In this document: positions 17,754 through 62,084 of the stretch, in pieces | Layout of the letters: each line of letters opens with the position of its first letter | How positions within the stretch are numbered: the stretch's first letter is position 1 | Assembly (NCBI GenBank): GCA_004376575.1 | Contig: SOJN01000070.1 | Location: forward strand, 1 to 64,000 | Reading direction: 5' to 3' | DNA length: 64,000 bases | Source: a candidate division TA06 bacterium | GTDB lineage: Bacteria > Hydrothermota > DG-26 > E44-bin18 | Position numbers and translations under genes: made by a program | The notes under the pieces: model-generated | What the model saw: the letters and a program-made list of their open reading frames with translations, nothing else | Database searches by the model: none | Told to the model about the DNA's origin: nothing

Positions 17754-17784
17754 CCCCGTTTCTCGCGAAGCAAGATGCACCGGG
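17754..17784 (-). repeat. 31-bp palindromic repeat, copy 1 (reverse, diverged)
   Basis: Reverse-strand copy of the CCCCGTGTNTCTCGC-TTC-GCGAGAAACGGGG family; here the second arm is diverged (AAGATGCACCGGG). Other copies are at 29639, 40659, 52610 and 61581. Confidence 0.65.
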
Positions 17785-27310: not shown

Positions 27311-28085
27311 GACCTTCCCCCTTTGCGCCTTCGGGGAGAAGTCCTCTACTTTTGCCGACAGACTGTTCAAAAATAGGGATTACTACAGAGCAATAACTGA
27401 ATACAAGAGGTTCTCTTACTTCTCCAACGAAAGCGGGCAAAAGAGACGGGCCAGTTTCAGGATTGGTGAATCCTACAGAAAGAGTGGCAGACCTGAAAAG
27501 GGGATCCCGTATCTTCTGGGTGCAGCGCGCTTCAATCCGCCAGATGCCCTGACAGATTCATGCTCATTCTCTCTGGCTAAATCATGGATGGAGCTGGGCC
27601 AATACGAGATGGCCAGGCATATACTCGATTCACTCCAATCTGAAGAAGATTCGACAATAATGGTGCTGGAGGCCTGGTCATACTTTCTGGAGGGTGACTT
27701 TCAGAATGCGCGGAGCAGCTTCCTGTCAGCTCATGCTTCTCCGCTTGCGGAGTTAGCTGTGAAGGGAGAGGAGCTGAGAACGAAGTCTCCCAGGGCTGCG
27801 AGCGTGATGTCGGCAGTACTTCCGGGCACAGGACAGATTTATGCAGGAGCGTACAGGCAGGGTTTCATATCTATGGCCCTGCACGGATTGATGGGATATT
27901 TGCTTTATCGATCGATAGTGGATCAGAGATATTTTGAGGCCGCGGCAGCTTTCTATACAGGATTTTCAAGATTCTACGTGAGTAACATAGCATCCGCTTC
28001 CAGGCTCGCGGGGGAACACAACGAGGCGCAGAGATCTAGGCTGGTCGAGGAAGCGAGGAGTATGTACGGGGACGACCTGGAGTAG
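27237..28085 (+). CDS. TPR plus hydrophobic C-terminal domain protein, paralogue B
   Basis: A 282-residue paralogue of the previous gene: signal peptide, 'FADRLFKNRDYYRAITEYKRFSYF', 'ASFRIGESYRKSGRPEKGI', then 'MSAVLPGTGQIYAGAYRQGFISMALHGLMGYLLYRS'. The start at 27237 has AGGAG six bases before it and gives a proper signal peptide; longer starts do not. It overlaps the end of paralogue A by 74 bp in a different frame, long for an overlap but supported by the signal peptide and ribosome binding site. Confidence 0.8.
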   Translation: MQFLKKISSRRLRISIILAAFSLIETFPLCAFGEKSSTFADRLFKNRDYYRAITEYKRFSYFSNESGQKRRASFRIGESYRKSGRPEKGIPYLLGAARFNPPDALTDSCSFSLAKSWMELGQYEMARHILDSLQSEEDSTIMVLEAWSYFLEGDFQNARSSFLSAHASPLAELAVKGEELRTKSPRAASVMSAVLPGTGQIYAGAYRQGFISMALHGLMGYLLYRSIVDQRYFEAAAAFYTGFSRFYVSNIASASRLAGEHNEAQRSRLVEEARSMYGDDLE

Positions 28086-28482
28086 TGAAAAAGGCCCAGC
28101 TGAAAAAGACCCAGCCTGTCGATAGACAGGGTAGGGTATTTTTCATCGTGTTTGGTCTTTGTTAGAAGTCGCAAGCGAAGCGCAGTGAACTCGTTACAAA
28201 GAGCTAATCCTGGCTGCCCTGAGCGATAGTCGAAGGGAGGGTACCCGAAGGGAGGCCGGTAGGCCGAAGGACCTGCTTGACGGCTGATGCGGGACTTGAT
28301 GAGGCATTTTTCATCCTTCATCGGCGTGAGCCGATGGAGGGGAAGCCAGCGCGGCGAAGGAATCTCCGGAGAGGTCTTCAATTTCGTAATTTCGTGTTCT
28401 GTGGTTTGGCGGGCGCTGCCAGTGGCGGAAAATGTAGGATCCGACCCCATACTTCACTAGAGCATGGGAACAGGGATCGCTA
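28086..28482. repeat. Intergenic repeat mosaic with possible terminator
   Basis: A hairpin CCTGTC-GATA-GACAGG with TATTTTT (28115-28145) may end the tldD operon. The CAAGCGAAGCGCAGTGAACTCGTTACAAAGAGCTAATCC repeat family member lies at 28145-28210. A reverse copy of the CTCCGTCGGC stem-loop repeat with GGATGAAAAATGCC (28290-28344) follows. AAAATGTAGGATCCGACCCC is near 28430. No gene is seen. Confidence 0.6.
28115..28145 (+). terminator. Possible terminator of the tldD operon
   Basis: CCTGTC (28115-28120), GATA, GACAGG (28125-28130), then GTAGGGTATTTTT. The distance to the T run is longer than usual. Confidence 0.4.
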
Positions 28483-29557: not shown

Positions 29558-29947
29558 ATCGGACCTTCAAGATGTGGTTGCACCTCGATACTCCCTTCGG
29601 CCACCTCAGCTCGATTGCTCTCAGGACAAGCGGGCAGGCCTCGTGTATCTCGCTTCGCGAGAAACGGGGCAGGCAGGATAAACTCCGTCGAAGGGCAAAA
29701 CACAAAGTATCAGAGATCCCGAGCGAAGCCGAGGGGCAAAAGTCAAATTACTTCCTTCCCCTACATGAGAAAACATGTCATTGCGAGACTCGCGGAGCGA
29801 GTCGAAGCAATCTCGGTCAAAAGCAGATTCTTCGGCCCGTTGGGCCTCAGAATGACATTTCGTTTCTTGTCACTACTTGTTGTAGGGGCGCGGCCTGTCC
29901 TACGAAGCCACGAAGGGCGAAGGAGGGTCTCCGCGCCCACTTTTCTC
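29558..29947. repeat. Intergenic repeats upstream of the ArsR-ABC operon
   Basis: No gene is supported. Holds the 31-bp palindrome copy at 29639-29669 with GCAGGC flanks, an AAGCAGATTCTTCGGCC...AGAATGACA element (29819-29856), and a block GGCGAAGGAGGGTCTCCGCGC (29916-29936) whose reverse complement is at 51646-51666. Confidence 0.6.
29639..29669 (+). repeat. 31-bp palindromic repeat, copy 2
   Basis: CCTCGTGTATCTCGC-TTC-GCGAGAAACGGGG. Stem of about 12 bp with a TTC loop. It is flanked on both sides by GGGCAGGC/GGCAGG. Confidence 0.75.
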
Positions 29948-40064: not shown

Positions 40065-40658
40065 GGAGCTGCAGACCTGGTTGATGATAGAGAATTCGCT
40101 GATTCGGCCGGGCTTTGCGTGGGACTCCGCGAGGAAATGCGCTCCCTTGGACTACACCCGAAATTACGAAATTGAAGACCTTGCCTACCCACTCGAAAAT
40201 CGACCCGCCTACGTCCTACGTGACTTCGGCGGCAACCCCCACAATGACACTCCTTTTCTTTTGTGATGGGATTTAGGGAGAAGCAGATTCTTCGTCGCCT
40301 TCGGTTCCTTCAGAATAACAATTGTTAATTTGTCATCCTGGGCGAATGCGAAGGATCCGCTTTTGGGGTTTGGCTGTATAGCCATTAGCGATAAGCGCTC
40401 AAAAGGCAGATTCTTCCCCCCTTCGCCTAATCGGCTTCCCGCCTCCGCTGTCCCTAGCTCCGACGGGCTTGCGCAGCCCGACGAAGCCACTTGGGCGTAG
40501 TCGGGTCATCCTGCCTGTCCCGTTCCACGGGGAGCGAATGCGAAGGATCTGCTTTTGGGGTTTGGCTGTATAGCCATTAGCGATAAGCGTTCAAAAAGCA
40601 GATTCTTCGTCGCCACACTTCTCCTCCGTCGGCTCGGGCCGACGAAGGATCAAAAATG

Positions 40659-40689
40659 CCCCGTGTACCTCGCTTCGCGAGAAACGGGG
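40659..40689 (+). repeat. 31-bp palindromic repeat, copy 3 (inside another repeat)
   Basis: CCCCGTGTACCTCGC-TTC-GCGAGAAACGGGG. The 35 bp 40661-40695 interrupt a copy of the stem-loop repeat, whose uninterrupted version is at 270-345: AAAAATGCC joins TCGTC directly there. Confidence 0.8.
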
Positions 40690-40922
40690 CAGGGCTCGTC
40701 TTTTCTCTGGAAAAGCCGGGCCTTTTTGACTCCAGAATCTGCGCTGAGGAGATCCTTCGACTTTGTCCTTTGATGAATCTCCCCGCGACTTGGGTCGCGG
40801 TAACATAATGTAGCCCCCAAGTCATGCCTTGTTGCAGGCTAAGCCATGTACACCAGACAGTGACAGTTTGTGCCTTCCTATGCTGTTGTAAAATAGAGAC
40901 TTAGACAGGTGGCTAATTCGGG

Positions 40923-52463: not shown

Positions 52464-52739
52464 ATTTTGACCTCCTTTTCCTATTGCATTCGTTGCTACA
52501 CTCTGGCATCCACAATTCTAGGTCTTCGGCCAACAATGTCAAGCACCTTACACCTCGTGAAACGAGGGCTCGTGAGACGAGCGCCCGTGGAACGAGCCAG
52601 GCGGGCAGGCCCCGTGTGTCTCGCTTCGCGAGAAACGGGGCAAGCAGGTATGAACTTCTGAACTTTTGTTATGCCGACGTGTCGTGTGGAATTTCGAATG
52701 GGAGCGGATGGGGGTCGGGAATTTCCTAGTTTCGTTTTG
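52464..52739. repeat. Intergenic with palindromic repeat
   Basis: Contains the 31-bp palindrome copy 4 (52610-52640), preceded by a 'GAAACGAGGGCTCGTGAGACGAG' hairpin-rich block. A short gap separates the PEBP start region from the end of the reductase gene. No gene is supported. Confidence 0.55.
52610..52640 (+). repeat. 31-bp palindromic repeat, copy 4
   Basis: CCCCGTGTGTCTCGC-TTC-GCGAGAAACGGGG, followed by CAAGCAGG; a nearly exact copy of the family. Confidence 0.75.
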
Positions 52740-61580: not shown

Positions 61581-61611
61581 CCCCGTGTATCTTACTTCGT
61601 GAGAAACGGGG
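61581..61611 (+). repeat. 31-bp palindromic repeat, copy 5 (diverged)
   Basis: CCCCGTGTATCTTAC-TTC-GTGAGAAACGGGG: both arms changed together (C to T on one, G to A on the other), retaining the pairing, which suggests selection for the hairpin. Confidence 0.75.
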
Positions 61612-62084
61612 TAGGCAGGATGAGCTCCGGATCTCCCAAAAGCAGATTCTTCGTCGGTCCCCTCCTCAGAATGACATCGGTCTTTTGTCATCCTGTTTAC
61701 TCTGTGTTAAAGGTCACAAGCAAGGCGTGGTGAGCTTGTTACACAGAGTTAATCCCGAGCGAAGTCCTGAGTTCTTCGAAGGACGAATCGAGGGGAGCGG
61801 AGTCCGAAGGACGGAGTCCCTTCGATACTCTCAGGATAAACTCCGGATCTGCTTGTGCCAGATTGCTTCGTCGCGCTGACGCACTCCTCGCAATGACATT
61901 TTCTCGTTTGCCTGCCCGAAGAAGTTGGCGATGCAGAAGTTGGGTCATTCTAGGAATCTTCTAAAAACCACAATGAGGGGGAAAATGGCGCCTCTACAGG
62001 TAGCCCATAAGACCTTACTGTATAGTGGTTTACGGCCTCTACCGCCCGATGTTCAGATTGACATCGACAATTGCGCAAACAGTA

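Follow-up and report, generated by a model that had tools for sequence, protein, structure and literature searches.

REPs are widespread in bacteria; how single REPs come to be placed is little understood, and singlets generally count as dead remnants. Very short, mobile-looking repeats inside other repeats are also represented by the small dispersed repeats of cyanobacteria and the short nested repeats of Deinococcus. The GTAG- and CGTC-tagged REPs are palindromes of 20-40 bp with a short unpaired end tag, which occur in many, mainly intergenic copies as single-species families and mainly as head-to-head dimers (PMC3733652). Some of them sit inside other palindromes, as described for A. variabilis GTAG-15, T. 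roseum GTAG-23 and H. neapolitanus CGTC-1 (Di Nocera et al. 2013, PMC3733652), so that nesting in itself is of an already known kind. The REPIN/RAYT system combines hairpin DNA, insertion without target duplication and a RAYT accompanied by GTAG-tagged inverted pairs (Bertels and Rainey 2011, PMC3116915; PMC8266576), all of which recur in the genome studied here. The characterised TnpA_REP enzymes cleave at CT or CA beside the tagged hairpin (PMC8266576). REP singlets are thought to be immobile (PMC3116915), which counts against the mobility of a single hairpin.

The repeat analysed in this work has a 35-bp form, L, and a 19-bp form, S. It is a REP in the broad sense, being a short imperfect palindrome with a high copy number and a mainly intergenic location. 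Compared with the GTAG/CGTC REPs, it is unusual in its tag, which reads CCTG (the tail CAGG on the other strand), in being a single-hairpin unit rather than mainly a head-to-head dimer, in having two sizes that interchange at one insertion site, and in having four host families whose empty and filled states coexist in one genome. Whereas a REPIN is an inverted pair, what inserts here is a single 35- or 19-bp hairpin, and L flanks no transposase. The absence of target duplication in the filled/empty pairs sets the element apart from DDE-type MITEs, which have terminal inverted repeats and duplications of at least 2 bp, and agrees with insertion by Y1/HUH enzymes. From the cyanobacterial and Deinococcus repeats, L and S appear to differ in sequence, tag and hosts.

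The inserted hairpin and its host repeat HR

The window, i.e. the whole stretch of DNA analysed (64,000 nucleotides), comes from an assembly of 3.0 Mb in 150 contigs that is 97% complete and probably metagenome-assembled. GatB comparison places it closest, among named relatives, to a candidate division TA06 bacterium (60% identity), and the lineage is thus uncultured. The copies of L and of its first host, HR, in the window are as follows.

40619-40735, + strand: HR copy filled by L, TCCTCCGTCGGC..GCCGACGAAGGA TCAAAAATG (CCCCGTGTACCTCGCTTCGCGAGAAACGGGGCAGG) GCTCGTCTTTTCTCTGGAAAAGCCGGGCCTTTTTGACTC, the 35-bp insert in brackets
40621-40648, + strand: HR hairpin 1 (TCCTCCGTCGGC / GCCGACGAAGGA)
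40659-40693, + strand: L inside HR, hairpin at 40659-40689 plus CAGG to 40693
268-343, + strand: HR copy with an empty site, AAAAATGCCTCGTC, without the 35 bp; gapless, ..GATCAAAAATGCC joined to TCGTC..GCCGGGCCTTTTTGACTC
28303-28344, - strand: left half of HR only; junction GATGAAAAATGCC-TCATC uninterrupted, right half missing or displaced
29639-29673, + strand: L, solo (palindrome part 29639-29669)
52610-52644, + strand: L, downstream of an array of short CGT-NNN-ACG hairpins (palindrome part 52610-52640)
61581-61615, + strand: L variant (palindrome part 61581-61611)
17754-17784, - strand: L variant

An earlier note on this DNA had reported a gapless joint near 270-345 and the same flanks interrupted at 40650-40735; both are confirmed by the HR copies at 268-343 and 40619-40735, as are the four other places in the window where it saw the palindrome, namely the last four lines above. 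The 31-bp palindrome that it described holds for the hairpin, and the insert becomes 35 bp when the CAGG tail is counted. Its third, reverse copy at 28290-28344 is indeed uninterrupted at the junction, but about 200 bp separate it from the nearest CTTTTTCAC end (28083-28100); with the right half lost or displaced, this is a broken HR copy and not a clean empty site.

L consists of the imperfect hairpin CCCCGTGTATCTCGCTTCGCGAGAAACGGGG followed by the unpaired CAGG, or, on the opposite strand, of the CCTG tag followed by the hairpin. S is CCCCGTGGAACGGGGCAGG (CCCCGTGGAACGCGCCAGG in the HR copy L008); on the strand opposite to the window it has a CCCCGT/ACGGGG stem with a 3-nt loop after the unpaired CCTG tag, and L differs from it by an extra inner TCTCGC-loop-GCGAGA stem nested above the S stem. 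The two forms alternate between the same paralogous flanks at loci L105 and L148, and in some copies GGGG and CAGG are separated by an additional short hairpin. Genome-wide, we found 74 copies of L (at most 3 mismatches) and 41 S-like copies, compared with 0 for the reversed control in either search, while a 24-base core of L matched three times in the window and not once in 100 dinucleotide shuffles; a chance origin of the L copies is excluded. Folded as single-stranded DNA, the L hairpin has z = -3.8 to -4.2.

HR is a structured repeat of roughly 75 bp with the break point AAAAATG^CCTCGTC. Among the 45 copies read in a count of filled and empty sites, of the kind that the earlier note had proposed, 37 are empty, seven contain L and one (L008) contains S; a truncated copy, L006, additional to these 45, also carries L. 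Base of insertion and orientation are identical in all filled copies. L occupies two HR subfamilies, the AAAAAT type and the CGAAATAT type (L007, L009), whose covarying stems, outer as well as inner, differ from one another. Filled copies resemble each other in sequence no more than random sets do (P=0.13), and most have an empty copy as nearest neighbour, although, since HR sequences are short, this is only moderate evidence for repeated events. HR itself is a hairpin structure under strong constraint: pairing holds in 94.6% of 667 cells, both sides have changed in 14 of 29 pairs, and covariation scores 0.334, compared with 0.131 for shuffled and at most 0.092 for slid controls. Its stems vary in concert and its loops are conserved. 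In the single filled HR copy that was folded, L forms an extra arm of the single strand.

Several other arrangements were observed around L copies. Tandem 15-bp hairpins of the form NNN-CGT-NNN-ACG-NNN with changing stems occur at 52550-52601 and in many L flanks, as mosaics directly upstream of L. Locus L112 (contig C6, 3515-3643) contains three tandem L copies and a second short hairpin. At locus L115 (C18, about 20523) the L variant TCCCGTGTATCTCGCTTCGCGAGAAACGGGAT has a tRNA-Arg(CCG) gene on one side and a duplicate of that tRNA's 3' half on the other, and locus L125 (C74, about 45485) has the same layout with another tRNA; this layout is like an att-type duplication or a tRNA-derived repeat.

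Filled and empty sites in three further host repeats

Exact filled/empty pairs exist for at least four host families: HR, the AGATTCTTCG..CAGAATGACA repeat, the TCATTGCGA..AAGCAATC repeat and a GTAG-tagged inverted pair (REPIN). The window contains the following members of the second and third families.

40506-40552, - strand: AGATTCTTCG..AGGATGA host filled by S
40514-40532, - strand: S (CCCCGTGGAACGGGACAGG) inside the AGATTCTTCG host
29823-29855, + strand: empty AGATTCTTCG host, GGCCCGTTGGGCCTCAGAATGACA, junction GGCCCGTTGGGCCT^CAGAATGA; exact empty partner of the S-filled locus L226
2753-2791, + strand: empty AGATTCTTCG host
29778-29812, + strand: TCATTGCGA..AAGCAATC host, empty

At locus L044, a filled GCAGATTCTTCG..CAGAATGACA repeat, TTTCACT(35 bp)CAGGATGACAATT, and an empty one, TTTCACTCAGAATGACAATT, are about 240 bp apart on one contig. 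The GTCATTGCGA..AAGCAATC repeat is filled in L030 (GTTAGGGCGA(35 bp)CGAAGCAATCTAAATGTGATAT) and empty in L015, L047 and L139 (GGGCGAAGAAGCAATC) and in L161 (GGGCGACGAAGCAATC). The GTAG REPIN, GGAGTAGCCGAGC..GCGCCA^CAAGTGGCGCTACTCC, is empty in L246 and L247, filled by S in L067 (twice), L229 and L235, and filled by L in L129. The insertion of a small mobile palindrome, suggested by the earlier note from HR, is supported by these exact pairs in four unrelated host repeats; the three hosts beyond HR also provide the independent insertion sites whose absence would leave long and short forms as mere ancient alternatives.

In each host family the filled member of a pair is longer than the empty one by 35 or 19 bp, added at a single fixed position. 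Target duplication at the ends, for which the earlier note had suggested looking, is nowhere longer than 1 nt in the pairs of the four hosts, where at most a 1-nt ambiguity occurs; an exceptional copy at L015 is without CAGG and is bordered by CGA on either side. The flanks common to all four hosts comprise nothing beyond a C at the 3' end, and C adjoins the 3' end of the insert in 59 of 63 copies. The pair of bases before the insert is CT or CA in two host families and TG or GA in the other two. The hosts, too, are hairpin structures, and nesting can reach three levels, with L inside HR inside the TCATTGCGA repeat (e.g. L002, L003, L005). A junction test found an empty counterpart for 16 of 65 elements, compared with 4-8 in shuffled pairings; this modest excess reflects the partial genome coverage of the test and a control in which related flanks are brought together as well. 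Repeats in an assembly this fragmented are open to misassembly; the distinct flanks and the two-state pair on a single contig (L044) argue against this as a general cause.

Candidate enzymes and phyletic distribution

A Pfam Y1_Tnp search of the genome gave seven matches. One of them, a 175-aa protein (L067:1468-1995, contig C53), scores above the NCBIfam NF047646 cut-off, matches PDB 4er8 TnpArep and is a genuine RAYT, of the kind that the earlier note had proposed to seek elsewhere in the genome. The gene region (L067 1369-2159) is flanked by GTAG REPINs, two of which have S nested within them. The L067 locus is a genuine REPtron, here in a bacterium of a candidate phylum; the repeat belonging to this RAYT is the GTAG REPIN, and S occurs there just as a nested insert. 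Five larger Y1 proteins (L061-L065; 295-331 aa) fall below the NF047646 cut-off. Their genes are flanked by their own inverted repeats, e.g. GGGGACGGTGCTTGACATTTGACATT, which recur elsewhere in the genome and are unlike L, S or HR, a layout similar to the TIRYT class of TIR-flanked Y1 transposases with non-REP inverted repeats (PMC3733652). No L copy lies within 1.5 kb of these five genes, and no transposase gene flanked by L was found in the genome.

L was not found in the 146 other genomes of the phylum set (at most 3 mismatches), and neither HR nor L had a match among the 39 nearest relatives examined. The exact L core is also absent from a collection of 84,980 species, from which records of the source genome itself may be left out. 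Occurrences of the core pattern in two viral contigs (L098, L099; CCCGTTTCTCACTTCGCGAGAAACGGG) were rejected as a chance palindrome in unrelated phage DNA, and a literature search for the TGTCATTGCGAG repeat returned unrelated papers only. Within the phylum set, 58 of 147 genomes have the TCATTGCGA host; this count includes the source genome, and many of the others carry the host empty. Since this host is widespread without L, it predates L in the lineage, which makes insertion the likelier direction. The phylum set also contains, e.g. at L180-L185, repeats of the form TCATTGCGAG-(variable hairpin)-CGAAGCAATC with genome-specific inner hairpins (58 of 147 genomes), which resemble TGTC/CGTC-tagged REPs with exchangeable loops.

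Proposed mobility and alternative explanations

We consider it probable that a single non-autonomous, REP-like mobile hairpin exists in the two forms L and S and is moved in trans by a candidate Y1/HUH enzyme. The unit would insert between a variable base and C without target-site duplication, with the inside of other palindromic repeats as its preferred target. Movement would proceed via single-stranded DNA through a RAYT-type Y1/HUH transposase, a route we infer from the duplication-free insertion sites, from the imperfect hairpin with its tag and from the one RAYT and five Y1 relatives of the genome. Against it stand the CCTG tag, which differs from the GTAG that the characterised TnpA_REP enzymes need (PMC8266576), and the finding that L flanks none of the transposase genes. 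Y1/HUH transposition is expected to leave a replication-strand (lagging-template) bias; the orientation of L is consistent within contigs (28 same and 9 opposite pairs, P=0.005, compared with 6 and 11 for HR), but it agrees with the replication-type skew in 30 of 48 cases (P=0.11), and neither gene strand nor raw GC skew explains it. S may be the older form, with L derived from it through a further nested hairpin and then propagated in part by gene conversion.

Gene conversion or template switching, in which S or L is copied between existing hairpins by recombination or hairpin-mediated strand switching and no transposase is involved, could account for the alternation of L and S at one site between otherwise paralogous flanks (L105 and L148), the concerted variation of HR stems with conserved loops, and the mosaics of short CGT-NNN-ACG hairpins beside L. 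It is nevertheless an unlikely explanation of the whole, because the four hosts share no flanks beyond the 3' C and homology alone cannot place the unit in all four; it may lie behind part of the L/S exchange and some of the filled copies. The identical base and orientation in all filled HR copies would also follow from one ancient insertion into HR and multiplication of the filled repeat as a whole. This scenario conflicts with the ungrouped filled copies, the occurrence of both S and L at the site and the two HR subfamilies, and is largely refuted by the independent insertions in three other repeats, which leaves it highly improbable.

Palindromes are often deleted during replication, and the HR copy L011 (TGCCCCGTC) could be read as a scar of such an event, so that the empty sites might be the derived state after precise loss of an ancestral palindrome from its hosts. 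However, the TCATTGCGA host occurs phylum-wide without L, empty copies form the majority in HR and exact loss would be needed in four families, all of which make deletion very unlikely. The least probable of the readings is a selected RNA or DNA structure with little mobility, such as a terminator, RNA stabiliser or protein site. Strong structure and the mostly intergenic location of L (35 of the 41 copies left after thinning lie outside ORFs of 120 aa or more) would suit it, but L favours neither convergent gene ends nor one gene strand, and the window contains no Rfam match.

More tentatively, the mobile hairpin that we favour could represent a third REP tag class, CCTG, in which a single 19-35 bp hairpin and not an inverted pair is the mobile unit, docking on the loops and stems of other hairpin repeats, with three-level nesting and two interchangeable forms; we regard this extension as doubtful. 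Filled and empty states in four unrelated hosts of one genome provide the exact ends of the element and its target rule (before C, inside hairpins) without experiments. They make the question of whether a single hairpin can be a mobile unit directly testable, and an L/S element of this kind would explain part of the mosaic repeat content in such genomes.
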